A stretch of 37,401 nt of DNA from a virus, in the IMG/VR virus record IMGVR_UViG_3300047323_000180, positions 1 through 37,401 of that record. One strand, 5' to 3'. Position numbers and translations under genes: made by a program. How positions within the stretch are numbered: position 1 is the first letter of the stretch; every line of letters begins with the position of its first letter. Of the stretch, positions 6,265-37,310 are shown one piece after another. Below the pieces are notes generated by a model that saw only the letters and a program-made list of their open reading frames with translations, was not told the DNA's origin and did no database searches.

Positions 6265-6266
6265 CT

Positions 6267-9169: not shown

Positions 9170-9190
9170 GCCTGGCGCGAACCCAAATTG

Positions 9191-9213: not shown

Positions 9214-9231
9214 TTTCTAAGGCACTGATAA

Positions 9232-10428: not shown

Positions 10429-10433
10429 GCCGC

Positions 10434-10467: not shown

Positions 10468-10480
10468 ATTTGAGGATCAC

Positions 10481-10705
10481 ATGACGCGATGGCCGCACAA
10501 GCCGCCCGTGCCTTACGTGCATCAGGAATACCCCAAATTCGTGAACGACAGGATCGTCCTGTCGGCTGAAGAAGAAGCTGCGTTGCTTGGCGCCGATACG
10601 GCAGACGAGCGCACAACCCTGATCGAGATCGCTGCCGCGCGCGGCGTGAAGATCGATAAACGCTGGTCCGATGACAAGATTCGGGCCGCAATCGAGGCTG
10701 CTTAA
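10481..10705 (+). CDS. Small protein with HeH/LEM-like C-terminus
   Basis: This 74-residue protein starts at the ATG at 10481, with GAGG about 5 bases upstream. The N-terminal part is Pro-rich (WPHKPPVPYVHQEYPK). The C-terminal about 30 residues (LIEIAAARGVKIDKRWSDDK and the following IRAAIEAA) look like the helix-extension-helix fold seen in small phage head proteins. Its stop overlaps the ATG of the gp4-like gene. A capsid accessory or assembly role is inferred from position between coat and head-closure genes. Confidence 0.65.
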   Translation: MTRWPHKPPVPYVHQEYPKFVNDRIVLSAEEEAALLGADTADERTTLIEIAAARGVKIDKRWSDDKIRAAIEAA

Positions 10706-11421: not shown

Positions 11422-11424
11422 TCG

Positions 11425-12849
11425 ATGCGAATCCCTCTTTCTGGTGGCGCCTACGCCGCGAAAAGCATCATCGCCAATGCGCAACGGTGCCTGAACCTGT
11501 ACGGCGAGCTCAACCCGAAGGATTCGCCGGCCCCGATGACGTATTACCCAACGCCGGGCCTGACAGCCGTTTCAACGCCGCCCGTCGCGGGCGAAAGCCG
11601 CTGCATCTATACGGCGACGAACGGAAAACGGTATGAAGTCGTCGGCGGCAATGTCTACTACGTCGACGCGGCAAACGCATACACGAAGCTCGGCGCGCTG
11701 AAATCGACATCCGGGCACGTATCGATGATCGACAACGGGTTCAACGCGTTCCTGGTTGACGGCACACAGATCGGCTTCACGATCGACATTGCGACGAACG
11801 TCATGAAGCAGTGCGCCGACGCGGCGTTCTACGGCGCCGACAAGGTTGATTTCGTCGACGGCTATTTCGTGTTCAATAAGCCGAATTCGCCTCAGTTCTA
11901 TATCTCGAAGTACGCCGACGTCGCATTCGATTCGCTCGACATCGCGAGCAAGTCGACCTATGCCGACAATCTCGTCACGCTCGCTGTGATGCACCGTGAA
12001 ATCTGGCTGTTCGGCGAATTGACGACCGAAGTCTGGTACAACACGGGCGCTTCCGACTTCACGTTCGGCCGCATGCCGGGCGTATTCATCGAGCACGGCT
12101 GTGCGGCGAAGCACTCGGTCGCGAAGATCGATCTCGCGCTGTTCTGGCTGGCGAAAGACCTGCAAGGGCAGGGCATCGTGTTCGGCGGCAAGAACTATGC
12201 GGCCGAGCGAATCTCAACGCACGCGCTTGAGGCCGAATTCGCCACGTATGCCCGCATCGACGATGCGATCGGCTTCTCGTACATGCAAGGCGGTCACGGC
12301 TTCTACGTGCTGACCTTCCCGACCGCCAACAAAACGTGGTGCTTCGACACGGCAACGGGCGAATGGGCGCAGCGCGGCTATCTGGAAGCAGACGGCTCGA
12401 TCAGCCGGCATCGGATGAACTGCCATTCGGTGAACGGCGGGCGCAATCTCGTCGGCGACTGGCAGACAGGCAAGGTGTACGCGCTCGATCCGAACGCCTA
12501 CACGGACGATGGCAACACGATCCTGTGTCTGCGCAGTTTCCCGCACATCAGCGCCGCTGATGGCAATCGCGTTCTGTTCCGCCAGTTCATCGCCGACATG
12601 GAGGTCGGTCGCGGGCTTCCCGATGACTCGGCTGCGCCTGAAGTGCGCTTGCGATGGTCGGACGACCGCGGCGCCAGTTGGGGAAATTACGTGACGGCAT
12701 CGGTCGGCCAACTCGGCGAATACATGACGTCGATCCAATGGCAGCGCTTGGGCTATGCGCGCGACCGCGTGTTCGAGCTGTCGTGGTCGGCGCCCATCAA
12801 AACGGCGCTTAACGGCGCGTATGTCGACGTTTCGAGGGCTCGCACATGA
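11425..12849 (+). CDS. Packaged-DNA stabilisation protein, P22 gp10-like
   Basis: This 474-residue protein matches P22 gp10 (472 residues) in length and pattern. It opens with RIPLSGGAYAAKSIIANAQR and CLNLYGELNPKD, then shows beta-rich repeats throughout, including EIWLFGELTTEVWYNTG and VFIEHGCAAKHSVAKID. gp10 forms the hexameric hub plugging the portal/gp4 channel and carries the needle and tailspikes. The gene begins 3 bases after the gp4-like stop and overlaps the next gene by 4 bases, so the closure genes form a tightly coupled set. Confidence 0.88.
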   Translation: MRIPLSGGAYAAKSIIANAQRCLNLYGELNPKDSPAPMTYYPTPGLTAVSTPPVAGESRCIYTATNGKRYEVVGGNVYYVDAANAYTKLGALKSTSGHVSMIDNGFNAFLVDGTQIGFTIDIATNVMKQCADAAFYGADKVDFVDGYFVFNKPNSPQFYISKYADVAFDSLDIASKSTYADNLVTLAVMHREIWLFGELTTEVWYNTGASDFTFGRMPGVFIEHGCAAKHSVAKIDLALFWLAKDLQGQGIVFGGKNYAAERISTHALEAEFATYARIDDAIGFSYMQGGHGFYVLTFPTANKTWCFDTATGEWAQRGYLEADGSISRHRMNCHSVNGGRNLVGDWQTGKVYALDPNAYTDDGNTILCLRSFPHISAADGNRVLFRQFIADMEVGRGLPDDSAAPEVRLRWSDDRGASWGNYVTASVGQLGEYMTSIQWQRLGYARDRVFELSWSAPIKTALNGAYVDVSRART

Positions 12850-13909: not shown

Positions 13910-14236
13910 ATGATTACGTGGAAACAACTCTGTCAGAGCGTTCTGACCGGGACGGCTGCGGCTGTCTATACCGCTCCGACTGGCACGGCGACCGCCATCC
14001 ATCAGGCAAGCGCATGGAACCCGAGCGGAAGCGTGGTTGCGCTCAAGCTCTACATCGTGCCGGCTGCGGGCGCCGCGGCTGATGCGACGACGATCTGGTC
14101 GGCGAACGTGCCGGCCGGCGCATCGGTGCAAATTCCGCAGGTCATCGGCCACAAGCTGCAAGCAGGGCAGCAGCTTTATGCGTCTGGCGCGGGTGTGACG
14201 CTGACCGCATCGGGCGCGGAGAACGTGCAGCAATGA
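13910..14236 (+). CDS. Small beta-rich virion protein
   Basis: This 108-residue protein begins MITWKQLCQSVLTGTAAAVY. It is rich in Ala/Thr/Val/Gly and predicted all-beta, ending ASGAGVTLTASGAENVQQ. Its stop overlaps the ATG of the next gene. Proteins of this look are small structural or fibre-associated subunits in phage tail modules, but no exact family is recognised. Position between the needle-like and ejection genes supports a virion role. Confidence 0.6.
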   Translation: MITWKQLCQSVLTGTAAAVYTAPTGTATAIHQASAWNPSGSVVALKLYIVPAAGAAADATTIWSANVPAGASVQIPQVIGHKLQAGQQLYASGAGVTLTASGAENVQQ

Positions 14237-14700
14237 GCGAACTGAACCCGATCGAAGTCGTTGCGGGCGCGATCGACAAGCACGACGCGCCGGCGCTGCG
14301 CGACAAGGTTGTCCGGCTTGAAAGCGAAATGTTCAAGCAGCCGCAGGTCGAGATCGAGACGACGCATCACTTCGCGCCAGGCATCTATGCGCGCGAAATC
14401 TTCATTCCGAAGGGCACGCTGCTTACCGGCAAGATCCATAAGACGGGCCATCTGAACATTCTGTCGAAGGGCGACATTACGGTTCTCACAGATAGCGGCA
14501 TGAAGCGAATCAAAGCGCCTTGCACGTTCGTGGCAAGCCCCGGCACCAAGCGCGCCGGCTACGCGCACGAGGATTCAGTGTGGACGACTATCCACGCCAG
14601 CGACGAAACGGAACTCGACAAGCTCGAAGCCGAATTGATTGTGCCGTCATTTGACGCGCTGCCTGCCGCCGAAGAAGTAAAACTGTTGAAGGGGGACTGA
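14233..14700 (+). CDS. Cupin-like virion-module protein
   Basis: This 155-residue protein has a central beta-barrel-like stretch: GIYAREIFIPKGTLLTGKIH, then NILSKGDITVLTDSGMKRIK, then APCTFVASPGTKRAGYAHED. It has the spacing of a cupin fold with a conserved-looking histidine after the first glycine turn. Similar proteins occur next to ejection genes in podophages. Enzymatic activity is not evident. The gene overlaps its upstream neighbour by 4 bases and is followed 2 bases later by the gp7-like gene. Confidence 0.65.
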   Translation: MSELNPIEVVAGAIDKHDAPALRDKVVRLESEMFKQPQVEIETTHHFAPGIYAREIFIPKGTLLTGKIHKTGHLNILSKGDITVLTDSGMKRIKAPCTFVASPGTKRAGYAHEDSVWTTIHASDETELDKLEAELIVPSFDALPAAEEVKLLKGD

Positions 14701-14702
14701 TT

Positions 14703-15575
14703 ATGTCTTGGGTAGCAGCAGCAGTTGCCGGCGCGGCCGTCGTTGGCGGCGTTGCGTCGGCAACCATCGGGGCCAGCGCCTCGAAAAGCGCGGCGCAAAC
14801 ACAAGCAAATGCCGCACGGGATGCCGCGCAGATTCAAAGCGATCAATGGGACCAGACGCAAGCTAACCTAAAGCCCTATATGAACTTGGGCGAATCGGCG
14901 ATTAATCCGCTGATTCAGGCGATTGGCTACAACGCGATCCAAGACCCGGCGACCGGTCAATACACGTTCACGAAGGACGGCAGCAGCCCGCTCAACCAGA
15001 CGTTTTCGTATGGCGCATTCAGTGCGCCGACAGCGGCTGAAGCGCAGGCGACGCCGGGCTATCAGTTCACGCTAAATCAAGGGTTGAAGTCGACGCAGAA
15101 CAGCGCGGCGGCTCGCGGGCTTGGGACGTCGGGCGCGGCACTGAAGGGCGCGTCGACCTATGCGACCGGCCTTGCTGATTCGACCTACAACGACGTGTAT
15201 AACCGCGCACTGAACGCCTATAACGCCAACTACAACACGGCGCAAGGCACGTTCACGACGAACTACAACAGCGCGGCGAACAATGCGAACCGCCTGTCGT
15301 CACTGGTGAGCAGCGGCCAGAATGCGGCGGCGACGAATGGCTCGCTCGGCGCATCAACTGCCAACAGTATCGGCAACACGCTCACGAGTGCGGCCAATGC
15401 GAGCGCATCCGGAACGATCGGCGCGGCCAATGCTTTGTCTAGCGGCGTCAATAGCGCGGTGAATGGCGCTACGACATACGGACTGATGCAGAACAACGCG
15501 GGCAGCACGGCGGCCGCAGCAAATCCGACCTACGGCACGACGGCAGCAGGCAACCCGAACTACTTCACGGTATAA
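14703..15575 (+). CDS. DNA ejection protein (gp7/gp14-like, p32-type)
   Basis: This 290-residue protein begins with a hydrophobic glycine/alanine stretch (WVAAAVAGAAVVGGVASATI), followed by an Ala/Gln-rich amphipathic helix (KSAAQTQANAARDAAQIQ). The middle has TPGYQFTLNQGLKSTQNSAA and GLGTSGAALKGASTYATGLA, typical of phage DNA-transfer proteins. The second half is low-complexity Asn/Ala/Ser. Such proteins are packaged in the head and injected to form a conduit across the envelope. GGGGG precedes the start 8 bases upstream. It is the first of three consecutive ejection genes. Confidence 0.75.
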   Translation: MSWVAAAVAGAAVVGGVASATIGASASKSAAQTQANAARDAAQIQSDQWDQTQANLKPYMNLGESAINPLIQAIGYNAIQDPATGQYTFTKDGSSPLNQTFSYGAFSAPTAAEAQATPGYQFTLNQGLKSTQNSAAARGLGTSGAALKGASTYATGLADSTYNDVYNRALNAYNANYNTAQGTFTTNYNSAANNANRLSSLVSSGQNAAATNGSLGASTANSIGNTLTSAANASASGTIGAANALSSGVNSAVNGATTYGLMQNNAGSTAAAANPTYGTTAAGNPNYFTV

Positions 15576-15577
15576 CG

Positions 15578-17068
15578 ATGCCACTTGATACCTCAATCGC
15601 ATTGAATGCGAGCGCGCCCGCGCCAATCAACCCGCTTCAGCAGGCGCTTCAGGTCGCTCAGTACCGCGCCTATAACGCGAACGGGCTTGCCGCGCAGCAA
15701 GGGCTCGACGCGAACCGCGCCATCTCTAGGGCCTACCAACAGGCTACCGACCCGACGACTGGGCAGGTCGACAACAACAAGCTTATGGCGCTGATAAGCC
15801 AAGACCCGTCGGCCGGCTTCAAAATGGGCGACGTGGTGCAGGGCATCAACACGCAGAGGCAGCAGCAGCAGACGCTGGCGCGTGGCGACATCGCACTGAA
15901 CAACGATCAGCGCGACAACTACGCGAGCGGCACGAAGTTCCTGACGCAGCAGATGGCAACGGTCGATCCGAAAGACCCCAACGCGGCAAAGAAGATCATC
16001 GATATTGGCACGGCTGCCGTTCAGCAGGGGCATATTCCTGCCGCGATGTTTAAGTCGGTTGTCGCGCAGTTTCCCGACGACGCAAGCCAATGGCCGCAGT
16101 TCATCCAGAAGCGGCTCGCATCGTTTCAAGACCCTGGCGCGCAGCTCGGCTCGATCACGCCGCAAACTGGCTCGGTCAACACTGGCGGCGGAACGCAATT
16201 CACGAATACCGACCGGCTCACCGGCAAGGTTACGCCGACCACATTCATTGCCAATACCGTCTCCCCGGAAACGGCTGCGCAGCAAGTATCGGTCACTGAT
16301 CCCGACGGCACGAAGCGGCTGGTTCCGATGTCGTCCGTATTGCAAAGGCAAGGGATGGGCGGCGTCCTTCCGCAGCAAGGAGCGCCGCAGGCAGTCGGTA
16401 GTGGGCGCTATCAGGGAGGCGATGGTTCGTTCCAGACGGCTCCCGCTGCGGGCGTGGTCGATGCGAACCAGAAGGCGAACGCGGCAGGCGGCGACATTCT
16501 CGTTTCCGACCAGCAGTCCAACGCGCAGTCGGGCTCGCGCATCAACATGCTGCAAAGCGCAGGCGATGCGCTGGCGAAGGCGCAAACCGGAACGGGCGCA
16601 GACAAGCTGCAAGCGATCAAAGGCGTCGTTGCCATGCTCGGCGGCCCCGCAGACGCGGCCGCAGACTACGACAAGGCGAACAAGTACCTAACCCAGTACG
16701 CGCAGCAGAAGGCGGCCGGCATGGGCGGCGGTACTGACGCGCAATTGGCGGCGACCGTCTCGGGCAATGCGAGCACGAAGATTAGCAACCTCGCCGCGCA
16801 GGACGTCGTTAAGGTCAACATGGGGCTTGAGCGCATGGAACAAGCCAGAATGAAGGCTTGGGAAAGCGCGAATCTGCCGCCGTCCGACTATGCCAAGTGG
16901 AAGTCTCAATTTGGCTCGACGATGGACCCGCGCGTGTTCGTTGCCGACCAGATCGACCCGAGCAAGGTTCAGGGAATGGTCAAGAAGATGAACCCGAAGG
17001 AACAGGCGACCTTCCGCACGCAATACAACTGGGCGGTTCAAAACGGCTTTATTAACGGTCCCCAATAA
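15578..17068 (+). CDS. DNA ejection protein (gp20-like position)
   Basis: This 496-residue protein has an Ala/Gln-rich helical N-terminus (NPLQQALQVAQYRAYNANGL), a Gln-rich middle (QGINTQRQQQQTLARGDI) and a helical C-terminus ending KMNPKEQATFRTQYNWAVQN. No enzymatic motif is visible. It lies between the gp7-like gene and the transglycosylase-bearing gp16-like gene, where P22 encodes gp20. It is therefore assigned as an injected channel protein from position and composition. Its stop overlaps the ATG of the next gene by one base. Confidence 0.65.
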   Translation: MPLDTSIALNASAPAPINPLQQALQVAQYRAYNANGLAAQQGLDANRAISRAYQQATDPTTGQVDNNKLMALISQDPSAGFKMGDVVQGINTQRQQQQTLARGDIALNNDQRDNYASGTKFLTQQMATVDPKDPNAAKKIIDIGTAAVQQGHIPAAMFKSVVAQFPDDASQWPQFIQKRLASFQDPGAQLGSITPQTGSVNTGGGTQFTNTDRLTGKVTPTTFIANTVSPETAAQQVSVTDPDGTKRLVPMSSVLQRQGMGGVLPQQGAPQAVGSGRYQGGDGSFQTAPAAGVVDANQKANAAGGDILVSDQQSNAQSGSRINMLQSAGDALAKAQTGTGADKLQAIKGVVAMLGGPADAAADYDKANKYLTQYAQQKAAGMGGGTDAQLAATVSGNASTKISNLAAQDVVKVNMGLERMEQARMKAWESANLPPSDYAKWKSQFGSTMDPRVFVADQIDPSKVQGMVKKMNPKEQATFRTQYNWAVQNGFINGPQ

Positions 17069-19797
17069 TGGCGAATTACGACGATGTTTTCGAGGCTGCG
17101 GGTAAGCAATTCAACGTAGACCCGAAACTTCTGAAAGCCATGATGGCGCAGGAAAGTTCGGGCAATCCGAACGCCGTGTCTCCTAAAGGTGCGGCCGGTC
17201 TCATGCAATTGATGCCGGCGACCGCCAAAGAGGTCGGCGTGACGAACCCTAACGATCCCGCTCAAAACATCATGGGCGGCGCTCGGTATATGTCGCAGAT
17301 GCTCGATAAGTTCGGCGACGTTCCGACCGCGCTGGCGGCCTATAACGCCGGCCCTGGCGCCGTTTCCAAGGCCGGCGGAATCCCGAACTTTCCTGAAACG
17401 CAGAACTACGTTTCGCGCATTACGGCGAACTATCAAGGGAAACCAATGGCGCAGCAATCGACGATGCCGGGTTTGCCGCCCACTGCTGACGCTGGAAGCG
17501 CGGGCGATGACCCGTTTTCTAAACTCATGACGTCGGGCGGCAGCGCTCCTGCTGCTGCGCCGGCAAAGGGCGCCCCCGCTGCTGCTCCTGCTGGCGGCGA
17601 CGACCCGTTCAGCAAGCTCATGGCGTCGAAGCCTGCGGCGCCGGCTCAACCTGCCAAGCCGGGCGCACAGGGGCACGACACTGGCCCGCTCGACATCATC
17701 GGCGGCGCTGTCGAGCCGATCGCCACGATGGCAACTGGCGCGCTCGGCAGCCTGGCGGGCGGCATCACTCGCTTGGGCGCGGCCGCGCTCGGCAGCAACT
17801 ACAAAGACGCGCAGGCGACCGGCAACAAGGTCGCTGACGCACTGACCTATCATCCGCAGACGCAAGGCGGCCAACAGGCTCTGGCGGGCCTTAGCGCGTC
17901 CGCAACGGGCATTAAGAACGCCGTCATGGGCTCGCCTGTCGGCCCGGCTCTGTCGGCTGTCGGCAATGCCTATGACAACACGTTTGTGAAGGGCGCGACG
18001 AACCCGCTGATGGCGACCATCAACGATCAGGTTCCGACCGTGACGGCTAACCTTGTCGCGCCGGCAGCGATCAGCGCGATTAAGGGCGCACCGAACGCAC
18101 TGCGCGCGGCGGTTGCGAAACCTATCGCGGCGGCCGAGCGTGTCGAGCCGAGCATCGGCGGGGCGAACCCGGCACCGGCAGGCGCAGGCTTTCAGGATGC
18201 CAGCCAGCCAAAGTCGACGATGTACACAGGTGCCGACGGGACGACGTCGACGACCCCGCCGGCAGGCTCTCCTAACGCATCCGCACAAGGCGCAACGCTG
18301 CGCGGCGTGGGCGCGGCCGAAGCGAACATGAACCCGTATGCCGGCATGACAGGCGAAGAAGCGGCGCGCGGCGGCAGCAGTGCATTCCCGCAGGTCAAGA
18401 CGTCGAAGATCGCGGCCGACGTGCCGGAAGCCGATCAGATCAAGCGGGCCGACATTGTGCGGCAGATTCTCGGCGACGATAATGGACAAATCCGCCCGGG
18501 CGTCATCACTGGCAACGAGGACAAACTTCGCAGCGAGTACACGCACGCGAAAAGCTCGGACAACACGCTGGCGCAGATCGCGCTGCGTGAGCAGATCGCA
18601 CACGAGCAGACGGCGCTGTCAAACTACGCGCAGCAGCGTGTTGAGGCAACGGGCGCGAACCCGAACCTAATCAACAACGAGCAGCGCGGCCAGGTCATCA
18701 ACGACGCGTTTCACGGCGAAGGCGGCCTGTCTGATTACTTCAAGCAGGCGAAGAATCAGATTTACGATCGGGCCAAAGCCGAGTCGGGCGACAATCCGAT
18801 CCAATCAACGCACGTCGACAAGCTTCTAAATGACCCGAAGTTCCTGGCGGAAGCCGAGCGCAACGGGCATACGGGCGTCGTAACTGGCGCGCAGAAGCTG
18901 ATCGATCTCGCCCGCTCGACGGGGTTCGAGGATTCTGCGCCGGGAAGCGTTGCCGCGTGGGATGCCGTGCGCAAGTCGAATAACTCCGGCTGGTCGCCGG
19001 ACAACTCGCGCACGATAGGTGCCATTAATCGGGCCATCGATCAGGACGTCGCAGCCGCTGCCGGCTCGGACGCCTACAAGCTCGGCGATGCCGTCCACAA
19101 GGCCGAGAAAACGATCATGGACGTGCCGGCTATCTCGAAGATATTCGGGGGCGCCGATGCGAACGGGATCAAGGATGGCACGTCGCTCGAAAAGCTCACG
19201 TCGAAACTGAACAACATGCCGCTGGATCAATGGCGCCATGTCTACAACACGCTCGACGATCTTTCGCGCGGCATCGTCCGCGGCGCGCCGGATGGTATGC
19301 CGCCCGTCCCGCAAGAGCTTCAGCAACTGGCGGGCGCCGCGCGTAACGAGATTTCAGGGGCTCTCGCTCGGGAAGTTCACGAGCAGGGGGCGGGCAAGAC
19401 GGGCGCCTGGAATCAGAACAGCGTGAACAAGACGCTCAACTCGGTTGTCGGCCAGAAGATCACCGAAACCTTTCCGCCTGACGAAGTGCAACGCTTTCAC
19501 ACGCTGAACTATGGCGGGCAGATCATGCCGGGCGTCCACTCATACGAAGGCGCCGCGCTTCAGAAGCAGCGTCTGAGCAAGCCCGGCTTCTACGAGAACC
19601 ATGTCGCCAAAGCGGCGTCGGCTCTCGGCGGGGCGCTTGGGGGCGCCATCAGCGGCGGCGCAGCAGCGGGCGCGGGTGCGGGTGCGGGTTCGTGGGTCGG
19701 CAATAAGCTCGCCGGCCGCTCGGCGGCTTCTCGCCTCGAAGGTGAGGCGAACAAGCTGCGCGAGATCATGCGCGAGAACTACAAGCGCGGTCAATAG
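17068..19797 (+). CDS. Ejection protein with N-terminal lytic transglycosylase (gp16-like position)
   Basis: This 909-residue protein carries an SLT domain at residues about 5-125: catalytic Glu29 in MMAQESSGNP, GLMQLMP (44-50), AAYNAGPGAV (90-99) and the closing ETQNYVSRI. This would open the peptidoglycan during DNA entry. A Pro/Ala-rich linker with two DDPFSKLM copies (147-154 and 178-185) follows, then a long helical body. The C-terminus has a Gly/Ala-rich hydrophobic hairpin-like stretch (ALGGALGGAISGGAAAGAGA) before a basic tail. It is longer than P22 gp16 (609 residues), which has no transglycosylase domain of this type, so it combines conduit and wall-cutting roles. Confidence 0.85.
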   Translation: MANYDDVFEAAGKQFNVDPKLLKAMMAQESSGNPNAVSPKGAAGLMQLMPATAKEVGVTNPNDPAQNIMGGARYMSQMLDKFGDVPTALAAYNAGPGAVSKAGGIPNFPETQNYVSRITANYQGKPMAQQSTMPGLPPTADAGSAGDDPFSKLMTSGGSAPAAAPAKGAPAAAPAGGDDPFSKLMASKPAAPAQPAKPGAQGHDTGPLDIIGGAVEPIATMATGALGSLAGGITRLGAAALGSNYKDAQATGNKVADALTYHPQTQGGQQALAGLSASATGIKNAVMGSPVGPALSAVGNAYDNTFVKGATNPLMATINDQVPTVTANLVAPAAISAIKGAPNALRAAVAKPIAAAERVEPSIGGANPAPAGAGFQDASQPKSTMYTGADGTTSTTPPAGSPNASAQGATLRGVGAAEANMNPYAGMTGEEAARGGSSAFPQVKTSKIAADVPEADQIKRADIVRQILGDDNGQIRPGVITGNEDKLRSEYTHAKSSDNTLAQIALREQIAHEQTALSNYAQQRVEATGANPNLINNEQRGQVINDAFHGEGGLSDYFKQAKNQIYDRAKAESGDNPIQSTHVDKLLNDPKFLAEAERNGHTGVVTGAQKLIDLARSTGFEDSAPGSVAAWDAVRKSNNSGWSPDNSRTIGAINRAIDQDVAAAAGSDAYKLGDAVHKAEKTIMDVPAISKIFGGADANGIKDGTSLEKLTSKLNNMPLDQWRHVYNTLDDLSRGIVRGAPDGMPPVPQELQQLAGAARNEISGALAREVHEQGAGKTGAWNQNSVNKTLNSVVGQKITETFPPDEVQRFHTLNYGGQIMPGVHSYEGAALQKQRLSKPGFYENHVAKAASALGGALGGAISGGAAAGAGAGAGSWVGNKLAGRSAASRLEGEANKLREIMRENYKRGQ

Positions 19798-19945
19798 GCG
19801 CCGTGATGGCGTAAAGCCAGTCGAAGATCCAGTCGCTGTCTTTCTCGTCGACCATTGCCGCATAGATCATCAGAGGAATCCACGCCTGAGTGCAGATCAC
19901 CAGCACAAGCGCCGCAACCTGTAGCAACCATTTCATCGCGCTCAT
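19766..19945 (-). CDS. Small membrane protein on the opposite strand, in the position of P22 sieA/immI
   Basis: This 59-residue protein starts MSAMKWLLQVAALVLVICTQ from an ATG with AAGGAAAAG just upstream. Residues about 5-30 form one transmembrane segment. A short acidic turn (VDEKDSDW) and a second, weaker hydrophobic stretch (FDWLYAITAPI) follow. It overlaps the end of the ejection gene by 32 bases and is antisense to the late operon. In P22 the same interval, between gene 16 and the tailspike gene, holds the immI/sieA region. A superinfection-exclusion role is inferred from position and membrane topology only. Confidence 0.6.
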   Translation of the reverse strand: MSAMKWLLQVAALVLVICTQAWIPLMIYAAMVDEKDSDWIFDWLYAITAPIDRACSSRA

Positions 19946-19957
19946 TTTCTTTTCCTT

Positions 19958-19986
19958 AGCCCGCCTTCGTGCGGGCTTTTTGTTTT
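19958..19986 (+). terminator. Terminator before the tailspike gene
   Basis: AGCCCGC-CTTCGT-GCGGGCT is followed by TTTTGTTTT. It ends transcription of the head/ejection block. GAGG, the tailspike ribosome site, follows directly. Confidence 0.8.
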
Positions 19987-19996
19987 GAGGCCCTAC

Positions 19997-22570
19997 ATGC
20001 AGATTCTGCCGAACGGCAAATGCCAGTTCATCGACCAGAACGGCGCGCCTTTGGTTAATGGCTCGGTCTATTTCTACGCGCCCAGCACGACCAATCCGCT
20101 GCCGACGTATCAGGATTCGGCCGGCACGATTGCTAACACGAATCCTATCCAACTGGATAGCCGCGGGCAAGCGATCATTTGGGGCGGCGCGACATATCGA
20201 CAGGTTGTGAAGGATGCCAGCGGCGTGACGGTGTGGGATCAGATCGTATCGGCCGCGGCATCGGCTGCGGCGCTCGCTGGCTCTGGCGGCGCAGCACTGA
20301 TTGGTACACCGGACGGCAGCAACCTCGCCAGCGCTCTCGCGCTCGGGATCAATCATGTCGTAGATTCGATCGCGGCCTTGCGCGCTGTCAACCACACGTT
20401 TTATGCGCGCGCGTTCGTGACGGGCTACCGCACGCCGAGCGATGGCGGCGGCGGCGCATATTCCGTCGACACGAGCGACACGAGCTCTGCTGATAACGGC
20501 GGCACGATCATCGTTGCATCGGACGGCGCGCGTTGGAAATTGCAATTCCAAAGCTCGGTCGACGTGATGCAGTTCGGTGCCGATCCTGCCGGCGCGACCG
20601 ATAGCTCCGCAGCGTTCCAAGCTGCCGTCAATGCGTTCTCAGGCAAGGCCGGCACGGTCACAGCGAAGGCTGGCAACTTCCTGTTGTCGAGCACGGTCGC
20701 GGTCCCGCAAAACGTTCATCTGCAAGGCCCGGTGCGCAACGTGGGCGAGCAGCGCACGGCGCCGACTGCTGTCATGTACGACAAGACCGGCGCGACGCTG
20801 TTCGTGGCGACCGCAGGCGGCTTGACGTTCGGCGATGCCGCGTCGATCGACGGGTTCTGGATTCTCAATTCCGCGCTGAAGGGTGCGTTGCCATTTCCTG
20901 ATGGCGGCACGGCGCAATCGGCTGTCAATGCGTTCTCCGGCACGGCCATTACACAGGTCGGCGCCGACATGAAGGTGTCGAATTGCTGGATCGGCGGATT
21001 CGCCCAGGCTATCTACGTGCCGACGCATGAGCGCACGAAAATCGATTGGGTTGAGATCGACTGTACAGCCGGCGTCTGGATCGACAATTCAAGCGACATT
21101 GCACGGCTTCAAAACGTCCACGCATGGCCGTTCCTGACGACGCACCAAACCTGGTCGACCGGCTCGAATGCGCGGCGTACTGGCGCGGGCTTCAAACTCA
21201 CGACGCACTTCGATACGGGCGTGTGCACGAACTGCTTCACGTTCGGCTACGACATCGGCTTCGATGTGCAGGCGCTAAACACGATCTCGCTTATTGGATG
21301 CTTTGCTGACGGGTCCGGGCTGAGCGTCGGTCAGATCGGGTTCAAGATCACGGCTGCGGCAGAACTGATCTCGATCATGGGCGGCGGCTCATCGGGCGTT
21401 GATACCGGCGTGTATTGCAACACCACTGCCGGGAACGGTGCGATCTCGCTCAACGGTGTCCAGTTCTGGGGTAATCACGCGCACATCATCTCCGACCAAC
21501 ATAAGGTTCTCAGCGTTGACGCATGCTATCTACGCGACACGAATGGCGGAAGCAGAACCGGTGTAACGCTCAATAGCGGCGTTACGGGGCTTACGTCAGT
21601 CCGAAGCTGTACGTTCGACAACCTTTCGACTTCATGGAGCGTTCAAGCAGTCCCGCTCGCGCGCCTAGTAGCTAAAGGCAATCGCTTCAATGGCTCGCTC
21701 GCAGATGGGATTGGGGAGCGTGATGCCGCAGAAAACAGCACGAACGCCAAGCACTTTCTTGATCTCTACTCGGACGACTCTAACCCTTGGCAGTATGTCG
21801 GCCGAAAGGGGCGTGGGAATGCTGCTGCGCCGACGATCGTGCAGGGTAACGATCAATTGTTGTCGCTTTATGCGCAGGGGTACGACGGCGCAGGGTTTCA
21901 GCCCGCCGCGCAGATGCGCATGCAGATTCAGGGGGCGCCTGCCTCGGGCGTCATGCCGGCGACGCTGATCTTTTCGACGAATAACGGTAGTGGGATATCC
22001 GATCGACTTGCTGTTCATAACACCGGGTATCTGTACCCGATTACGGACAATGCTTATTCTCTCGGGCAGTCCGCGAACCGCTTTTCGACTGTCTATGCGG
22101 CAACCGGCACGATCAACACGTCCGACGGCAACACGAAAACGGACATCGAGAACGCGACGCTCGGGCTCGACTTCATCAGCGCGTTGCGGCCTGTCTCGTA
22201 CAAGTTCAAGGTCGGCGGGACGGAAGTCGTTCGTCAGGTGTTTCGCGATGCATCCGGAAACGAGTGTGATCCGAGCGCGGATGGCGCGACGCCGGCCGAG
22301 ATCATCACGCAGGAGCGGCCCGGATCGCGCACGCATTGGGGCTTGATTGCGCAGGAAGTAAAAGCCGTCGCTGATGCGGCCGGCATCGACTTTGCCGGAT
22401 GGACGATCGAGGACAAGAGCGATCCGAACAGCCTGCAAGGTCTGCGCTACGACCAATTCATTTCGCCGATCATCAAGGCGGTGCAGGAACTGTCGGCGAA
22501 GGTGGCGGCGCAATCCGACATCATCGACGGACTGGTCGATCGCCTCGCGTCGCTCGAATCTCGCGCGTAA
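19997..22570 (+). CDS. Tailspike: P22-like head-binding domain, beta-helix and S74 chaperone
   Basis: This 857-residue protein starts at the ATG at 19997, with GAGG 6 bases upstream. The N-terminal about 90 residues (MQILPNGKCQFIDQNGAPLV, NPIQLDSRGQAIIWGGATYR) resemble the virion-binding domain of P22-type tailspikes. From about residue 185, DVMQFGADPAGATDSSAAF opens a pectate-lyase-type beta-helix that would bind or cleave surface polysaccharide. Near residue 708, NTSDGNTKTDIENA starts a peptidase S74 intramolecular chaperone that trims itself after trimer folding, followed by HWGLIAQEVKAV. The central receptor part is probably the host-range determinant. The last residues form a coiled coil. 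Confidence 0.88.
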   Translation: MQILPNGKCQFIDQNGAPLVNGSVYFYAPSTTNPLPTYQDSAGTIANTNPIQLDSRGQAIIWGGATYRQVVKDASGVTVWDQIVSAAASAAALAGSGGAALIGTPDGSNLASALALGINHVVDSIAALRAVNHTFYARAFVTGYRTPSDGGGGAYSVDTSDTSSADNGGTIIVASDGARWKLQFQSSVDVMQFGADPAGATDSSAAFQAAVNAFSGKAGTVTAKAGNFLLSSTVAVPQNVHLQGPVRNVGEQRTAPTAVMYDKTGATLFVATAGGLTFGDAASIDGFWILNSALKGALPFPDGGTAQSAVNAFSGTAITQVGADMKVSNCWIGGFAQAIYVPTHERTKIDWVEIDCTAGVWIDNSSDIARLQNVHAWPFLTTHQTWSTGSNARRTGAGFKLTTHFDTGVCTNCFTFGYDIGFDVQALNTISLIGCFADGSGLSVGQIGFKITAAAELISIMGGGSSGVDTGVYCNTTAGNGAISLNGVQFWGNHAHIISDQHKVLSVDACYLRDTNGGSRTGVTLNSGVTGLTSVRSCTFDNLSTSWSVQAVPLARLVAKGNRFNGSLADGIGERDAAENSTNAKHFLDLYSDDSNPWQYVGRKGRGNAAAPTIVQGNDQLLSLYAQGYDGAGFQPAAQMRMQIQGAPASGVMPATLIFSTNNGSGISDRLAVHNTGYLYPITDNAYSLGQSANRFSTVYAATGTINTSDGNTKTDIENATLGLDFISALRPVSYKFKVGGTEVVRQVFRDASGNECDPSADGATPAEIITQERPGSRTHWGLIAQEVKAVADAAGIDFAGWTIEDKSDPNSLQGLRYDQFISPIIKAVQELSAKVAAQSDIIDGLVDRLASLESRA

Positions 22571-22618: not shown

Positions 22619-22810
22619 ATGAAAGAAGCTGCTTCGGCCGTTGCGCAAACGGTCGCTCAAGTTGCGCCTCCGTGGTATGCGACCGCTCTCGCGTGGAGCG
22701 ACACGAATTTCCCGCGCGTGCTGCTCGCGCTATCGGTCATTTACACCGCGCTGCAGATTTACTCGTCGATCAAGCGCCTGCGCAAAGGGAATGCGAATGT
22801 CGATGAATAA
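22619..22810 (+). CDS. Small holin-like membrane protein
   Basis: This 63-residue protein has an Ala/Val-rich N-terminus (EAASAVAQTVAQVAPPWYAT), one clear transmembrane segment (about 32-50, VLLALSVIYTALQIYSSI) and a short basic tail KRLRKG. Size, charge distribution and position directly before the endolysin are those of small phage holins. Its 3' end overlaps the lysozyme start by 14 bases. A second holin candidate lies after the endolysin, so which one sets lysis timing is open; one may act as antiholin. Confidence 0.65.
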   Translation: MKEAASAVAQTVAQVAPPWYATALAWSDTNFPRVLLALSVIYTALQIYSSIKRLRKGNANVDE

Positions 22811-23249
22811 CGAGAACCTTCAAAAGCTGATCGCAGAGCTGCGCCGCGACGAGGGCGTTCGTTATTCGCCGTACAACGACACGAAGGGCATTCCCACGGT
22901 AGGCGTCGGGCACAACCTGAACGCGAAACCGCTGCCGGCCGGCTGGAAATATCCGCTCAACGATACGCAGGTCAATTCGCTGCTCGACGACGACCTCGAA
23001 GACGTGTTTCACGATCTCGACCGCAACCTGCCGTGGTGGACGGATCTCACGGACATGCGTCAGCGCGTGCTCGCAAACCTGTGTTTCAACATGGGAATCA
23101 ATCGCCTGCTCGGGTTCAAGAAGGCGCTCGTTGCCATGCGACAGGGCAAGTTCTCGACAGCCGCCGACGAGTTGCTTGATTCGACGTGGGCCACCCAGGT
23201 AAAGGGGCGGGCGGCCCGTCTCGCCGACATGATGCGCAAAGGGGTCTGA
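22797..23249 (+). CDS. Endolysin, T4-type lysozyme (GH24)
   Basis: This 150-residue protein starts at the ATG at 22797, preferred because AAAGGGA lies 6 bases upstream. The catalytic triad is intact: Glu19 in RRDEGVRY, Asp28 in YNDTKG and Thr34 in IPTVGVGHN, with the same 9- and 6-residue spacing as T4 lysozyme. The C-terminal motif LCFNMGINRLLGFKKALVAM is typical. It has no signal peptide, so it needs a holin for release. It cleaves the MurNAc-GlcNAc bond of peptidoglycan. Confidence 0.93.
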   Translation: MSMNNENLQKLIAELRRDEGVRYSPYNDTKGIPTVGVGHNLNAKPLPAGWKYPLNDTQVNSLLDDDLEDVFHDLDRNLPWWTDLTDMRQRVLANLCFNMGINRLLGFKKALVAMRQGKFSTAADELLDSTWATQVKGRAARLADMMRKGV

Positions 23250-23250
23250 C

Positions 23251-23793
23251 ATGGACTGGAAAGCAATTCTCGGTGGAGTCGCGCCGACACTGGCGACGGC
23301 TCTGTCTGTCGTCGGCGGGCCGGCCGGCATGGTGGCAGGCGCTGCATTGCGTGCGGTGAGCGGCGCCGTGCTCGGGCATCAGGACGGCACATCCGATCAG
23401 GTGACGCAGGCAATTCAAGCGGGATTATCGCCCGATGCGATTGCAGCGCTTCAGAAAGCCGACAACGACTTTAAGGTGTCGATGGCGCAGATTGCCGCGG
23501 CAACGGAACAGGCGTCGATTAAGGCCGGTTCTGACGCCATCGGCGACGTCAACCTGACGATACAAGCCGAATCCAAGTCGGATCACTGGCCGTCGTACAC
23601 GTGGCGGCCGTTCATTGGCTTCATGTTCGGCCTCTACGTCGCCTCGCTGTTCATCCTGCCGCTGTTCCACGTTCAGCCCGTCACGCTGTCGGCGGACATG
23701 ACGCTGACGATTGGTGCGGTGCTAGGTGTGGCGTCGTTCTTTCGAGGGAAGGCGCAGGCTGATCCGCGCGTGCAGGCCGATAGCCGCGGCTAG
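23251..23793 (+). CDS. Second holin candidate (3TM holin family)
   Basis: This 180-residue protein has an N-terminal Gly/Ala-rich hydrophobic stretch (about 12-45, TLATALSVVGGPAGMVAGAA), a soluble middle, and two C-terminal membrane segments: the first around WRPFIGFMFGLYVASLFI (about 112-133) and the second around LTIGAVLGVASFF (about 150-165). The WRPFIGF motif after a soluble region is typical of the GTA/3TM holin family. It begins one base after the lysozyme stop. No Rz/Rz1 spanin pair is visible in any frame nearby. Confidence 0.7.
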   Translation: MDWKAILGGVAPTLATALSVVGGPAGMVAGAALRAVSGAVLGHQDGTSDQVTQAIQAGLSPDAIAALQKADNDFKVSMAQIAAATEQASIKAGSDAIGDVNLTIQAESKSDHWPSYTWRPFIGFMFGLYVASLFILPLFHVQPVTLSADMTLTIGAVLGVASFFRGKAQADPRVQADSRG

Positions 23794-24140
23794 TCTCATT
23801 TTGAGCGACGTAACCCCGCGCATCGGCGCAGGCGAGGCAATAGAATTGAAATGGCCGTGTGGCTGTGTCGACGACTGACTGACATAGCTCGACTTCATGC
23901 GGCCATCCATAGAATGGACTGCCGGCGCATCGAGCCTTAGTTGCCAAGTCCGATTCCGTTGCGCCGGTGGCGTCTTTCATCGGTTGAAACCTATGCCACA
24001 TGATAGTTAAACGTTTGTGAGTGTGCCGGGATTCTATCCTCGGACAGCGCTAGGCGTCATGCCGCGAATACAACACTTGACATAATAGAGATTATCGGTT
24101 CTTTTTTAGGTGTCCAGCAATGGGACGCTAGGAACCGATT
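23794..24140. other. Non-coding stretch before the iterons
   Basis: No well-supported gene lies here. A minus-strand frame (23681-24001) contains two Cys pairs (YCLACAD among them), but it lacks a ribosome site and half overlaps the holin gene. At 24077-24110 there is an AT-rich segment (TTGACATAATAGAGATTATC and a T6 run) that could be the DNA-unwinding part of the origin. At 24111-24130 a degenerate iteron lies in inverted orientation (TAGCGTCCCATTG on the minus strand). Confidence 0.4.
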
Positions 24141-24266
24141 TAGCGTACCTGTAGCCGAACACTACGCTGCATGTGGATAACTTTAGCGTACCTGTGAGCG
24201 GACTCTAAATCTCCTAGCGTACCTGTGGCCGAACCCTAAACCGGCTTAGCGTACCTGTGGCCGGAC
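24141..24266 (+). repeat. Iteron array: four direct repeats, plasmid-type origin
   Basis: Four 20-base direct repeats with consensus TAGCGTACCTGTGGCCGAAC lie at 24141-24160, 24184-24203, 24215-24234 and 24247-24266. The last three start 31 and 32 bases apart, about three helical turns. The first is 43 bases from the second because a DnaA box is inserted. Their 12-base core TAGCGTACCTGT is identical in all four. They lie next to the Rep-like gene. The arrangement matches iteron-controlled low-copy plasmid origins. Confidence 0.8.
24172..24180 (-). promoter_or_regulatory. Perfect DnaA box inside the iteron array
   Basis: TTATCCACA reads on the minus strand, an exact match to the DnaA-box consensus. 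It lies between the first and second iterons. Host DnaA recruitment beside Rep-bound iterons is standard in plasmid origins of this type. Confidence 0.75.
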
Positions 24267-24276
24267 AAAACCATAC

Positions 24277-24897
24277 TTATATCTCTTCTATATCCTTCGG
24301 CGCGGCCGCGATCCGCCTCCGGGTGTCCATCAAACGGCGCACAGCAGGGTGCGCAGAATCCTCGTCGACCTCATCAGGCGGCGGCGCAAGTTCAGTTGTT
24401 GGAAGCGCAGCCTTCAGAACGCCTTCTGCAGAATCCCACCTAAAACCGTCTCCGGGAATGATTTCGCAGTTTGTGAGCGCTTCAGCATCGACGCGCCCGC
24501 GTTCGTTCACCGCCTCCCCGATTGCTTTTAGGCGCTCGCCAATCTTCATGGGGATATAGTCGACGACGATTGTGCAGAGAACTCGCGTTCCTAGTCGAAT
24601 GTCTAGACGCTCGCGGGCGATGTATAGCGTTCCAGTCTTGCCCTTGCCTTTCGTGATGACGCGCAGCATCTTGTGCTTTTCTAAGATCTTCACGCACTCA
24701 GATACGGTGCTCTTCCCCATTCCGGTCATTTCGGCAAGTCGGCGGATTCCCGGCTCGGCCTCGCCAGTGTCGAAGTCGGCGTGGCTCTTGATGGCTTGCC
24801 AAAGACCGAATGCGCTCATCCCAATCTGCGCGGCAATCCCTGATTCGAACAAGTCGCGCTGCATGGTTTGAAATGTCGTATCAATCTTGCTCTTCAT
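24277..24897 (-). CDS. Winged-helix replication initiator-like protein (Rep)
   Basis: This 206-residue protein begins MKSKIDTTFQTMQRDLFESG. A winged helix-turn-helix occupies about residues 30-100 (GIRRLAEMTGMGKSTVSECV, then a wing in KGKTGTLYIARERLDI). This is the DNA-binding fold common to phage and plasmid initiators. The C-terminal part is Pro/Glu-rich and helical. Its ATG overlaps the stop of the RHH gene (TGATG), with AAGGGG upstream, so it is translated from the par transcript. The iterons lie 11 bases beyond its 3' end. Initiation at those iterons is inferred from this arrangement; a transcriptional regulator is the alternative. Confidence 0.65.
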   Translation of the reverse strand: MKSKIDTTFQTMQRDLFESGIAAQIGMSAFGLWQAIKSHADFDTGEAEPGIRRLAEMTGMGKSTVSECVKILEKHKMLRVITKGKGKTGTLYIARERLDIRLGTRVLCTIVVDYIPMKIGERLKAIGEAVNERGRVDAEALTNCEIIPGDGFRWDSAEGVLKAALPTTELAPPPDEVDEDSAHPAVRRLMDTRRRIAAAPKDIEEI

Positions 24898-25208
24898 CAA
24901 TGCGCCCCCTTCTCTGCTTTTACTAGCTCGCGCACGCGCTTTTCGACTTCAGCACGAATCGCCTCAAGCGCAATGGAGTGCATCGATTCGGGCGTTTTCT
25001 CTGCCAGATAGGCGAGTTTCATGTGCAGCGCCTGCGGCAGACGCACGACAAACGGCTCTTTCACCTTCGGGTGTGCCGATTCCCACGGAAGCGCCGTGAT
25101 CGCCTTGGCGGGCCTCTCCGTGCGCGCTGGCACGACGTTCGCTGTCGGCGCTTCGTCGCTGGCCCGAACGAAAGCCATCGGATCGTGGAATTTCTTCTTT
25201 TCAGTCAT
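24897..25208 (-). CDS. Ribbon-helix-helix partition protein (ParG/ParB-like)
   Basis: This 103-residue protein has an unstructured N-terminal half (about 1-50, with basic residues in VVPARTERPAK). A ribbon-helix-helix follows: strand EPFVVRLP, helix QALHMKLAYLAEKTPE, and a second helix IALEAIRAEVEKRV. The layout is that of ParG-like centromere-binding proteins of type Ib partition systems, whose mobile N-terminus stimulates the partner ATPase. The ATG overlaps the ParA stop (ATGA). It probably binds the repeats upstream of parA and represses the operon. A CopG-type regulator is a less likely alternative given the neighbour. Confidence 0.75.
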   Translation of the reverse strand: MTEKKKFHDPMAFVRASDEAPTANVVPARTERPAKAITALPWESAHPKVKEPFVVRLPQALHMKLAYLAEKTPESMHSIALEAIRAEVEKRVRELVKAEKGAH

Positions 25209-25846
25209 TGCCAGACCTCGGCGGCCAGCGCGCGGATCTCCGAAACGGCCTTCGGATCGACCTTCGGGAATTCCGTCACAGCCATTCCATCGCGAGCCGT
25301 CAGGCGAAATGCCTTCCGCTCGCTGATGACGACGCCGAGCAGCGTGTATTGCTGAAGCGACGCCAGCGCCTCGCGCATGTCGGCAACGTCGCTCGAATTG
25401 GCATTCGTCGGCGCCCGGTTGACAACGGCCAGCGCGCGCAGGTCAGGGTTGAATCCCCTCGCCTGCTCGACAAGCCTGTCCATCGTGCCGAACGTGAAAA
25501 GATCGAACTGGCTCGTCTGCGCCGGCGTGACGATCGTATTGGCGACCAGCATTGCGCTGCGCAGCTCGGCGGCATCCGATCCGCGCGTGTCGATCACAAT
25601 GTCGTCATATTTCGGCGCCATCGCACGTACCTGGCTCGCCAGCGTGTCGCCGAACAGGCTGACGCACGTAATCATCGGGGTAATCCCCCCCCCCTCCCTG
25701 ATGGCGTTCCATTTCGTCGCAGACTGTTGCTTGTCCGCGTCGATCAGCAGGACGTCGCGCCCTTCCCCTGCCCGCATCGCAGCAAACGAAACCGCAAGCG
25801 TGCTTTTTCCGCTGCCGCCCTTCTCCCCGCCGAACAGTACGATCAT
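25205..25846 (-). CDS. parA: ParA-family partition ATPase
   Basis: This 213-residue protein has all ParA motifs: deviant Walker A KGGSGKST (9-16), DADKQQSATKW (36-46) and Walker B-like VIDTRGSD (84-91). It lacks the N-terminal DNA-binding extension of type Ia ParA, so it fits the ParF-like type Ib class. The start at 25846 is chosen because GAGGA lies upstream and the Walker motif is then at the usual distance; an open frame extends further upstream without support. It would move plasmid copies to daughter cells with the RHH partner. A run of ten G residues at 25694-25685 encodes its Gly-Gly-Gly (52-54). Confidence 0.88.
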   Translation of the reverse strand: MIVLFGGEKGGSGKSTLAVSFAAMRAGEGRDVLLIDADKQQSATKWNAIREGGGITPMITCVSLFGDTLASQVRAMAPKYDDIVIDTRGSDAAELRSAMLVANTIVTPAQTSQFDLFTFGTMDRLVEQARGFNPDLRALAVVNRAPTNANSSDVADMREALASLQQYTLLGVVISERKAFRLTARDGMAVTEFPKVDPKAVSEIRALAAEVWQ

Positions 25847-25860
25847 TGCCGGTTCCTCAT

Positions 25861-25963
25861 ATCGTTTGATTTGATTTCGTTTCAAACGATAGCATATGGA
25901 ACCAAATAATACGATTCGACTTCGAATCACGTCATTTCATATGGAATGATATGATTCGATTTC
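25861..25963 (-). promoter_or_regulatory. Centromere/operator-like repeats upstream of parA
   Basis: The AT-rich 100 bases before parA contain a perfect inverted repeat ATCGTTTGA (25861-25869) / TCAAACGAT (25882-25890). A second palindrome, GATTCGA-CT-TCGAATC, lies at 25913-25928. A direct repeat CATATGGAA occurs at 25893 and 25938 (45 bases apart), each copy followed by GATTCGA. This is the expected place and structure for a type Ib centromere that also serves as the par operator. Base composition differs sharply from the flanks. Confidence 0.6.
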
Positions 25964-25966
25964 ATT

Positions 25967-35939: not shown

Positions 35940-37310
35940 TCAGTCCAGACCGCCGAATTTAGGGCGTCTCACGTCAGGACGCGCGCCGAATGAGCGCTCG
36001 TTCGCGAGATCCGCAAATCGTGTCTGTTCGCCGATAAACGCGAGCCCAACGACGCCCGTTTCCCCCTGGCGCTGCTTCGTGCAGATGACCTCGCACACTC
36101 CTTTGTCCATCGAATCCGGGTTGTAAACCTCGTCGCGGTACAGGAACAGGATCGTATCGGCATCGGCTTCGATGTCGCCTGAGTCTTTCAGGTCGGACGA
36201 CAGGGGGCGCTTATTCGGCCGTTCCTCGCACTTGCGCGAGAGCTGCGAGAGCAGGACGATCGGAATGTCCAACTCCTTCGCCAGATTCTTGAGCCCCTTC
36301 GTCAGCGCGCCGATCTGCAGGTCGCGCCGTTCCTCGTTGCCGGTTGCCATCAGCCCGAGATAGTCGACGACGAGCATCGACAGGCCATGCTTGCGCTTGA
36401 TCGCGCGGGCCTTGTTGCGCACTTCGAGCAGCGTCAGGTTCGGTTGGTCGTCAAGGTACAGGCGCAGCTCGTTGATGCGCTGGCCGGCATGCGTGACGCG
36501 CTGCCATTGCTCGTTGTCGAGCTTCGCCGGGTCGCGCAGTTGTCCCATCGGGATACCGCCCATTGCCGACACAAGGCGCTGCTGAAGCTGGACGTTCTTC
36601 ATTTCCATCGACAGGAACAGCACCGGCGCCGCCTGCGCGACGTTCGCCGAGATCGTCAGGGAAAACGCCGTCTTACCCATCGACGGGCGAGCCGCGACGA
36701 TCACCAGGTCGCCACCGTAGAAGCCACCGCCGAGCTTGCGATCGAGATCCGTCAGGCCAGTAGGGACGGGCTTAATCTTGCCGTCGATCTGGTGTTCAAG
36801 GTAGTTCAGATACTCCTGCAACGAGTCGGACGCGCGAACCGGCTCAGACTTGACGATTGCCTCGCCGAGCTTTTCGAGCTTCGTCGACGCACGGTCGATC
36901 AGCACCGCGGCGCTATCAGGCGTCGTGCCGACTGAATCCTGGATCTCGTGCGACAGTGCCAGCAGCCCGCGCTTCTGCGCCCGGTCGCGCACGATCTCCG
37001 CATATCGCGCGACGTTTGCGCTGCTCGGCGTGTTCTGCGCCAGGTCATTGAGATACGCGAGCCCGCCAACATCGGCCGCCCGACCCTTCGCTTGCAGGCG
37101 CTCGAAAACGGTCATCACGTCGGCGCCGACGCTGCCCGAGATCAGTGCGACGACTTCCAGAAAGATCGCCCGGTGGTCGCCGCGAAAGAAGTGCTCCGCG
37201 CGCAGGTCGCCGATCCGGTCGATTGCGTCGTTGTCGATCAACAGCGCGCCGATGACGGCTTGTTCTGATTCGATGCTCTGCGGGATTGCGCGTTGGATGT
37301 CGTTGTTCAT
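35940..37310 (-). CDS. dnaB: Replicative DNA helicase, DnaB type
   Basis: This 456-residue protein has the full DnaB layout: an N-terminal helical domain (PQSIESEQAVIGALLIDNDA), a linker, then a RecA-fold ATPase with Walker A RPSMGKTA (208-215), SMEM (234-237), Walker B LVVDYLGLM (313-321) and the DnaB-specific LSQLSRKCEERP with SGDIEADADTILFLYR. It unwinds DNA at the phage fork and is loaded by an initiator. It overlaps the upstream partial gene by 4 bases. A phage-encoded helicase makes lytic replication less dependent on host DnaB. Confidence 0.95.
   Translation of the reverse strand: MNNDIQRAIPQSIESEQAVIGALLIDNDAIDRIGDLRAEHFFRGDHRAIFLEVVALISGSVGADVMTVFERLQAKGRAADVGGLAYLNDLAQNTPSSANVARYAEIVRDRAQKRGLLALSHEIQDSVGTTPDSAAVLIDRASTKLEKLGEAIVKSEPVRASDSLQEYLNYLEHQIDGKIKPVPTGLTDLDRKLGGGFYGGDLVIVAARPSMGKTAFSLTISANVAQAAPVLFLSMEMKNVQLQQRLVSAMGGIPMGQLRDPAKLDNEQWQRVTHAGQRINELRLYLDDQPNLTLLEVRNKARAIKRKHGLSMLVVDYLGLMATGNEERRDLQIGALTKGLKNLAKELDIPIVLLSQLSRKCEERPNKRPLSSDLKDSGDIEADADTILFLYRDEVYNPDSMDKGVCEVICTKQRQGETGVVGLAFIGEQTRFADLANERSFGARPDVRRPKFGGLD

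Follow-up and report, generated by a model that had tools for sequence, protein, structure and literature searches.

Gene content of the window

The window analysed here is the whole of the IMG/VR virus record IMGVR_UViG_3300047323_000180, a linear stretch of 37,401 bases in which a terminal repeat is absent. The following features can be found along it.

1..342, minus strand: second, lytic-type replication initiator (DnaD/O-like), cut (phrog_6493, 3.6e-34)
457..1002, plus strand: repressor/Cro-type regulator, temperate control (phrog_5736, 8e-7; phrog_12107, 9e-6)
4236..12849, plus strand: P22-type head genes for TerS, TerL, portal, scaffold, coat, gp4-like adaptor and head closure (PHROG matches)
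9232..10428, plus strand: coat gene, within the P22-type head block
13910..22570, plus strand: short tail, ejection proteins and tailspike (PHROG matches)
22619..23793, plus strand: lysis genes for holin, endolysin and a second holin-like protein, at the boundary of the slot that holds an integrase in relatives
24077..24120, no strand: AT-richer stretch adjoining the iterons, candidate unwinding element (GC 46-49% vs 60% overall)
24141..24266, plus strand: four iterons (TAGCGTACCTGTrrsCGrAC) 3′ of rep, putative Rep-binding origin, chance-controlled and conserved with Rep1
24172..24180, minus strand: perfect DnaA box TTATCCACA between iterons 1 and 2
24277..24900, minus strand: rep (Rep1), 207-aa winged-helix replication-initiator-like protein (HTH_36, PHROG, AF2)
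24897..25208, minus strand: candidate ribbon-helix-helix (RHH)-like partition partner of 103 aa in ParG-like position (weak HMM, AF2, position)
25205..25846, minus strand: parA, 213-aa Walker-type partition ATPase of type Ib size (HMM, ParF match)
25847..25966, no strand: repeat-rich region upstream of parA with ATTCGA and CATATG repeats, candidate centromere/operator (shuffles)
35940..37310, minus strand: DnaB-type replicative helicase of the early block (PF03796, 5.7e-86)

The sequence-only reading had described a P22-type podophage with a complete plasmid maintenance module. The virion part of this description is borne out by PHROG matches, as the P22 coat family, portal, scaffold, head completion and closure, ejection, tailspike and other short-tail genes are all present, and the virion and packaging genes expected of a phage-plasmid are thereby accounted for. 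The repressor/Cro-type regulator has relatives in the related contigs G001, G006, G041 and G051. The plasmid module is likewise complete. The window is not a whole genome, since its left end cuts the lytic initiator gene, of which 114 of about 261 amino acids are retained. Its right end lies 91 nt upstream of dnaB, which is on the same strand as the initiator. Judged from the length of phrog_6493-family proteins, at least about 0.45 kb is missing, and the record is best read as a circle opened within this early replication gene.

The early block also contains a long ORF (26732-28180, minus strand) with internal repeats of ASNERAD/RADADTAGA-type segments. A Mu Gam-like end-protection gene (31531-32025, minus strand; 1e-43) is kept in the early block of most of the relatives examined.

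Putative replication and partition genes with their repeats

The rep, RHH-like and parA genes form a tight minus-strand series with overlapping ends. Rep1 matches HTH_36 at E=5e-5, slightly below the curated Pfam cut-off, and PHROG replication families down to 1.6e-8. Its AF2 model has a confident N-terminal winged helix and a low-confidence C-terminus; in Foldseek this model gave no match at E<=1e-3, the hits being MarR-like, and a sequence search against solved structures returned chance matches only. Rep1 is 94-99% identical in five other contigs, while tblastn against phages and plasmids and a search of about 85,000 genomes, the latter sensitive to close relatives only, gave no match. The homology search of the Rep protein proposed with the sequence-only reading therefore yielded no direct plasmid match, and plasmid relatives were reached through a second type, Rep2. 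The Rep1 family has no name in Pfam or NCBIfam, and its best NCBIfam matches are regulators.

Four copies of the iteron TAGCGTACCTGTGGCCGAAC occur within 126 bp, at 24141, 24184, 24215 and 24247 (mismatches 1, 3, 0 and 1; start-to-start spacing 43, 31 and 32 nt). The number expected by chance is 0.00, none of 100 whole-window shuffles contained even a single match, and a separate shuffle control gave 0/200. The DnaA box TGTGGATAA at 24172-24180 is the sole perfect TTATCCACA in the window, against 0.05 expected. The TAGCGTACCTGTrrsCGrAC iterons are kept in all Rep1-type relatives and absent with other Rep types, and DnaA boxes also adjoin the repeats in Rep1', Rep2 and Rep3 elements and in plasmid pA29BJ2. 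DNA similarity of the window to G001 and G002 picks up again at 24077, where the AT-richer stretch begins. Iterons, DnaA box and AT-rich stretch are features of Rep_3-type origins, and all are present beside Rep1. No Rep3_N or Rep3_C domain was found in Rep1, though these domains occur in sister elements such as L140 and L151; the Rep1 replicon would thus work like a Rep_3 (pi/RepE) iteron replicon without belonging to that family. Beyond the iterons lies a small Cys-containing ORF (MWHRFQPMKDA...GYVAQN; 23681-24001, minus strand) that overlaps the end of the last lysis gene and has a conserved counterpart in G006 (16558-16836, plus strand).

The parA ORF opens at 25930, but its start is probably the first ATG ahead of the Walker box, at 25846, which gives the 213-aa protein. 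ParA matches phrog_164 at 3e-40 and NCBIfam ParA_partition at 5e-44 (under cut-off); its best solved match is ParF (2e-10), and it is 38% and 36% identical to the ParAs of KS14 and D6, respectively. Its type Ib features are its small size, the lack of an N-terminal HTH and a deviant Walker A motif, KGGSGKST. The RHH-like protein is the least secure identification of the module. Its HMM scores are marginal (HicB 0.009, Arc 0.08, Arc-like PHROGs about 0.01), and its AF2 model consists of a disordered N-terminus followed by a helix-helix C-terminus, so that the assignment draws on these scores, the position and the model together. Upstream of parA, repeated 6-mers number 25 in 25847-25966 compared with 9.4 in shuffles, and 0/500 shuffles reach this value; the repeats are partly kept in L129 and L130, which share the window's ParA.

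What had been proposed for this stretch is upheld as regards the winged-helix Rep-like gene, the iterons and perfect DnaA box, the type Ib-sized ParA and the repeats upstream of parA, which are non-random over 120 bp and a candidate centromere. For the ParG-like RHH gene, the gene itself, its position and its helix-helix model agree with the proposal, while HMM support is weak. As regards the genes expected of a phage-plasmid, ParA supplies the partition system, its RHH partner being the weakly supported part, and a plasmid-type initiator with its origin is indicated by homology, by the slot it occupies and by co-variation with the iterons.

A shared slot and interchangeable initiators

Matches to PF00589, PF00239 and PF00665 (tyrosine recombinase, serine recombinase and rve-type transposase) are absent from the 37,401-nt window, in agreement with the earlier statement that no integrase is visible. 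The search was extended beyond the window to G006, G041, G051 and G001, which are taken to span the full circle because their ends repeat or overlap themselves, G006 by an exact terminal repeat of 105 nt, G041 and G051 by an end overlap of about 1.1-1.3 kb at 93%, and G001 by an end overlap at 96%. All four are without tyrosine or serine recombinases and rve. The P22-family coat is found in three of them (G006, G041 and G051), the coat of G001 being unmatched to that family. Close relatives by coat protein are plentiful. Circular assemblies are no proof of a plasmid state, because terminally redundant virion DNA also gives circles.

Amongst 31 records, an integrase was found in 0/6 with a phrog_164 ParA and in 14/25 without (Fisher p=0.02); adding six more par-positive P22-coat contigs gave 0/12 versus 14/25 (p=0.0009), in counts whose records are non-independent and in several cases fragments. 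Several P22-coat records have neither ParA nor PF00589, and a missing integrase alone is therefore not diagnostic. G010 (L097/L098; 38,344 bases, 107-nt terminal repeat) is a complete-looking P22-coat relative without a PF00589 integrase or phrog_164 ParA.

Where an integrase is present in relatives, it lies just after the lysis or tail genes (G029, G023, G025 and G007). G029 has a homologue of the last lysis gene in the window (23251-23793), and its integrase match opens about 0.8 kb past the point where this homologue starts, on the opposite strand, as rep is in the window. In G023, the integrase lies between the tailspike and a leftward Gam gene. In G025 and G007 the integrase opens the contig and the lysis genes close it, as expected of an integrated prophage. 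The window's rep/par genes are flanked on one side by the last lysis gene and on the other by the leftward early block that includes Gam, and a P22-type tyrosine integrase/attP is absent from this late-early slot. Because the integrase of same-coat relatives occupies the same slot, the plasmid module appears to replace it, and the simplest reading is that rep/par stands in for int/attP.

The sister contigs, gathered with either the G006-type ParA or that of the window, differ in the gene that follows parA-RHH, which may be Rep1, Rep1', Rep2, Rep3, Rep_3 or RepL. Rep1' is about 53% identical to Rep1, and Rep2 and Rep3 are 20-30% identical to it. The Rep_3 proteins have both domains, PF01051 plus PF21205 (L140, 1e-33; L151, 1e-32), and the RepL proteins match PF05732 (L150, 6e-31). 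Each winged-helix type and Rep_3 has its own repeat set alongside, in most cases together with a DnaA box; L150 and L155 showed no iteron set next to their RepL genes. The iteron motif tracks the Rep type, a correspondence that is partly circular, as the motifs were read from the same elements, and that draws its weight from conservation within a type, for example between the Rep2 proteins of G006 and L125 (77% identity).

The partition genes vary separately. The Rep1 proteins of the window and of G001/G002 are 98-99% identical, whereas their ParAs are 33% and their RHH proteins about 22% identical; conversely, in L129 and L130 a ParA 97-99% and an RHH protein about 80% identical to those of the window accompany RepL as initiator. 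In all, three types of ParA are found alongside Rep1, ParA types in turn occur with several Reps, and the RHH gene co-varies with parA, not rep. The iterons go with Rep and the RHH gene with ParA, a pattern to be expected if Rep plus iterons make up the replicon and ParA plus RHH the partition system. The junction of lysis genes, iterons, rep, par and early block also occurs in G001, G002 and G003, where the lysis and rep/iteron parts are 80-91% identical at the DNA level, and a like junction is present with other Rep types in G006, G037 and G041.

Further arrangements were observed in individual contigs. The 9.9 kb contig L005/L101 has Rep1 at 94% beside a third ParA/RHH type, with structural genes unlike the window's, which suggests that the replicon moves between virion types. 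In G042 and G050 (L181, L178), probably contractile-tailed phages like KS14, the ParA-RHH unit with Rep_3 or RepL occurs on contigs that also have baseplate-wedge genes. Rep2-type contigs without a P22 coat (L125 and G031-G034) encode a short tyrosine recombinase of 266-303 aa, located in L125 at 7193-7993, upstream of parA-RHH-Rep2; this enzyme might resolve dimers and not serve as an integrase. In L139 and L133, the Rep3 origin is followed immediately 3′ by an acyltransferase-like gene (MTRNNNLDGLRGLAALSVVLGH...), assigned by eye, possibly a surface-modification (lysogenic conversion) gene.

Rep2 relatives (36-43%) are found on Polaromonas pA29BJ2 and Acinetobacter pRBH2-3, on both of which a ParA gene and then a single small gene immediately precede them. 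On plasmid pA29BJ2, the Rep2-like gene is followed 3′ by a palindromic repeat in several copies and by two DnaA boxes, and no second replication initiator is annotated. The circular A. baumannii plasmid record pRBH2-3 has a coat gene 100% identical to that of the isolated phage vB_IME_Ab2712, so this element occurs as both plasmid and phage. The stretch of pRBH2-3 that was read contains a primase-like gene and stops about 9 kb short of one end and 3.6 kb short of the other; as a second Rep may be present, the part played by the HTH_36-type gene is less secure here than on pA29BJ2.

A probable plasmid prophage and its counterparts

From these comparisons a phage-plasmid is clearly the best reading. 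We consider it very likely that the window represents a temperate P22-type podophage whose prophage is a low-copy circular plasmid, with 24.1-26.0 kb as an exchangeable maintenance cassette in the int/attP slot. The extrachromosomal state, and with it Rep binding, helicase loading, replication, copy control and partition, we infer from sequence. During lysogeny, the winged-helix protein Rep1 would bind the iterons 3′ of its gene; together with DnaA at the box between the iterons, this could open the adjacent AT-richer DNA, and Rep1 and DnaA would load the host helicase at the opened origin. Copies would be distributed to the daughter cells by ParA and its small RHH-like partner through the repeats upstream of parA. 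Once the repressor is lifted, lytic growth would proceed by the O/DnaD-like initiator and the early-block DnaB. Most likely, then, the element carries two replicons, Rep1-iteron-DnaA for maintenance and the O/DnaD-like initiator with DnaB for lytic growth; this division of labour is supported by G001 and G006, whose early block retains an O-like initiator and a DnaC-like loader. Phage P1 is a phage with two replicons.

It is improbable, in our judgement, that the phage integrates by a missed enzyme, an enzyme in the missing stretch or host XerCD at dif, with rep/par as an accessory relic. The record is indeed linear and incomplete, and KS14 and POI1126 retain recombinase genes despite being plasmids (PMC3091744, PMC5492332). 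The break, however, falls within the lytic initiator gene, the int slot is filled by rep/par, and the circle-spanning relatives are free of tyrosine and serine recombinases and rve transposases. A relic would moreover not stay intact and 94-99% conserved, as Rep does in independent contigs; ParA is conserved at 97% in two others.

The regulators amongst the best NCBIfam matches of the Rep1 family and the MarR-like Foldseek hits (none at E<=1e-3) would suit a 'Rep' that is a transcription regulator with the iterons as its operators, ParA/RHH having another role in a virulent or pseudolysogenic phage. We regard this as very unlikely, given that Rep_3 and RepL initiators fill the same slot, that DnaA boxes lie beside the repeats in nearly all winged-helix Rep elements examined, that the Rep-like gene of pA29BJ2 is the only one seen there, and that a repressor gene is present in the window. 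Least probable of all is that assembly joined a P22-type phage to a plasmid in a chimeric contig, as the metagenomic origin of the contig and strong mosaicism might suggest. This was rejected because the junction recurs in G001, G002 and G003, and in G006, G037 and G041 next to other Rep types; G006 also closes on itself.

Beyond the phage-plasmid reading of the window itself, we lean, if only slightly, towards a wider view in which the late/early boundary is a lysogeny-module socket. It would take either int/attP or parA-RHH plus an initiator from any of at least three unrelated families, with exchange independent of the virion and plausibly serving to escape plasmid incompatibility, and the small single-winged-helix Reps with 3′ iterons would be an unnamed plasmid-initiator family missed by present replicon typing. 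Such a family would supply a replicon for elements untyped in PLSDB, e.g., pA29BJ2 and pRBH2-3. The exchange also suggests that a virion type classically linked to integration can switch its entire lysogeny mode through a single cassette, and the naturally occurring combinations, in which one Rep meets three ParAs and one ParA several types of initiator, make incompatibility, copy control and cognate iteron recognition testable.

Phage-plasmids as a class, podophage plasmid prophages and int/par exchange are already known. Replication and partition genes are often exchanged between plasmids and phage-plasmids (Pfeifer and Rocha, PMC10879196), POI1126 is a podophage with a plasmid prophage (PMC5492332), and IMG/VR has been the source for a 2026 survey of phage-plasmid-like elements (PMC13221032). 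Our literature search, which did not include the Pfeifer et al. 2021 survey, returned no earlier P22-type phage-plasmid lineage with an integrase-for-replicon swap; what is new here is the P22-type example and the unnamed Rep family. A P22-type virion with a plasmid module and no integrase is thus present as the sequence-only reading had stated, although calling the combination unusual was an overstatement in view of the POI1126 plasmid prophage, the P22-coat genes on Leptospira plasmid records and on the integrase-bearing Acinetobacter seifertii pAS51-4, and int/par exchange in mycobacteriophages.

In phage P22, int lies between the late genes and the leftward early genes. The window resembles P22 in its coat, portal, and head and tail gene order, and differs in having rep/par where P22 has its integrase. 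The elements pRBH2-3/vB_IME_Ab2712 and pA29BJ2 share with the window the order ParA, small gene, HTH_36-type protein, and pA29BJ2 also iterons with DnaA boxes; pRBH2-3 is, however, a 75-kb N4-gp56-coat phage element and pA29BJ2 a 104-kb plasmid, and their Rep proteins are 28-30% identical to Rep1. Two ParA phages, Vibrio VPHZ6 and Pseudomonas PARCL1pr, were rejected as counterparts, having other virion types and an integrase. Amongst isolated phages with a related ParA, KS14 is the experimentally backed one, its plasmid prophage having been demonstrated by miniprep and restriction (PMC3091744). KS14 and FLC5/FLC10, all Burkholderia phages, have ParAs 36-38% identical to that of the window, but KS14 is P2-like with a RepB-type initiator and a serine recombinase, whereas the window is P22-type with another Rep family and no recombinase. 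POI1126, a Bcep22-like podophage of Ochrobactrum, matches the state proposed for the window in its short tail and plasmid prophage; it differs in its 60 kb Bcep22-type genome and putative integrase, and its replication genes were not identified (PMC5492332). In TP228 ParFGH (type Ib partition), a small ParA has a small RHH-type gene directly downstream and repeats upstream, a layout that the window's ParA, candidate RHH gene and candidate centromere repeats resemble, while sequence homology to the window's RHH-like protein is not recognisable. In cluster A mycobacteriophages, int is replaced by par in a like manner, with the partition cassette in the genome position of the integration cassette and with exchangeable replication systems that are RepA or RNA-based; these are actinobacterial siphophages, though, and their parABS systems use ParB instead of ParA plus a small RHH protein (PMC7157519).
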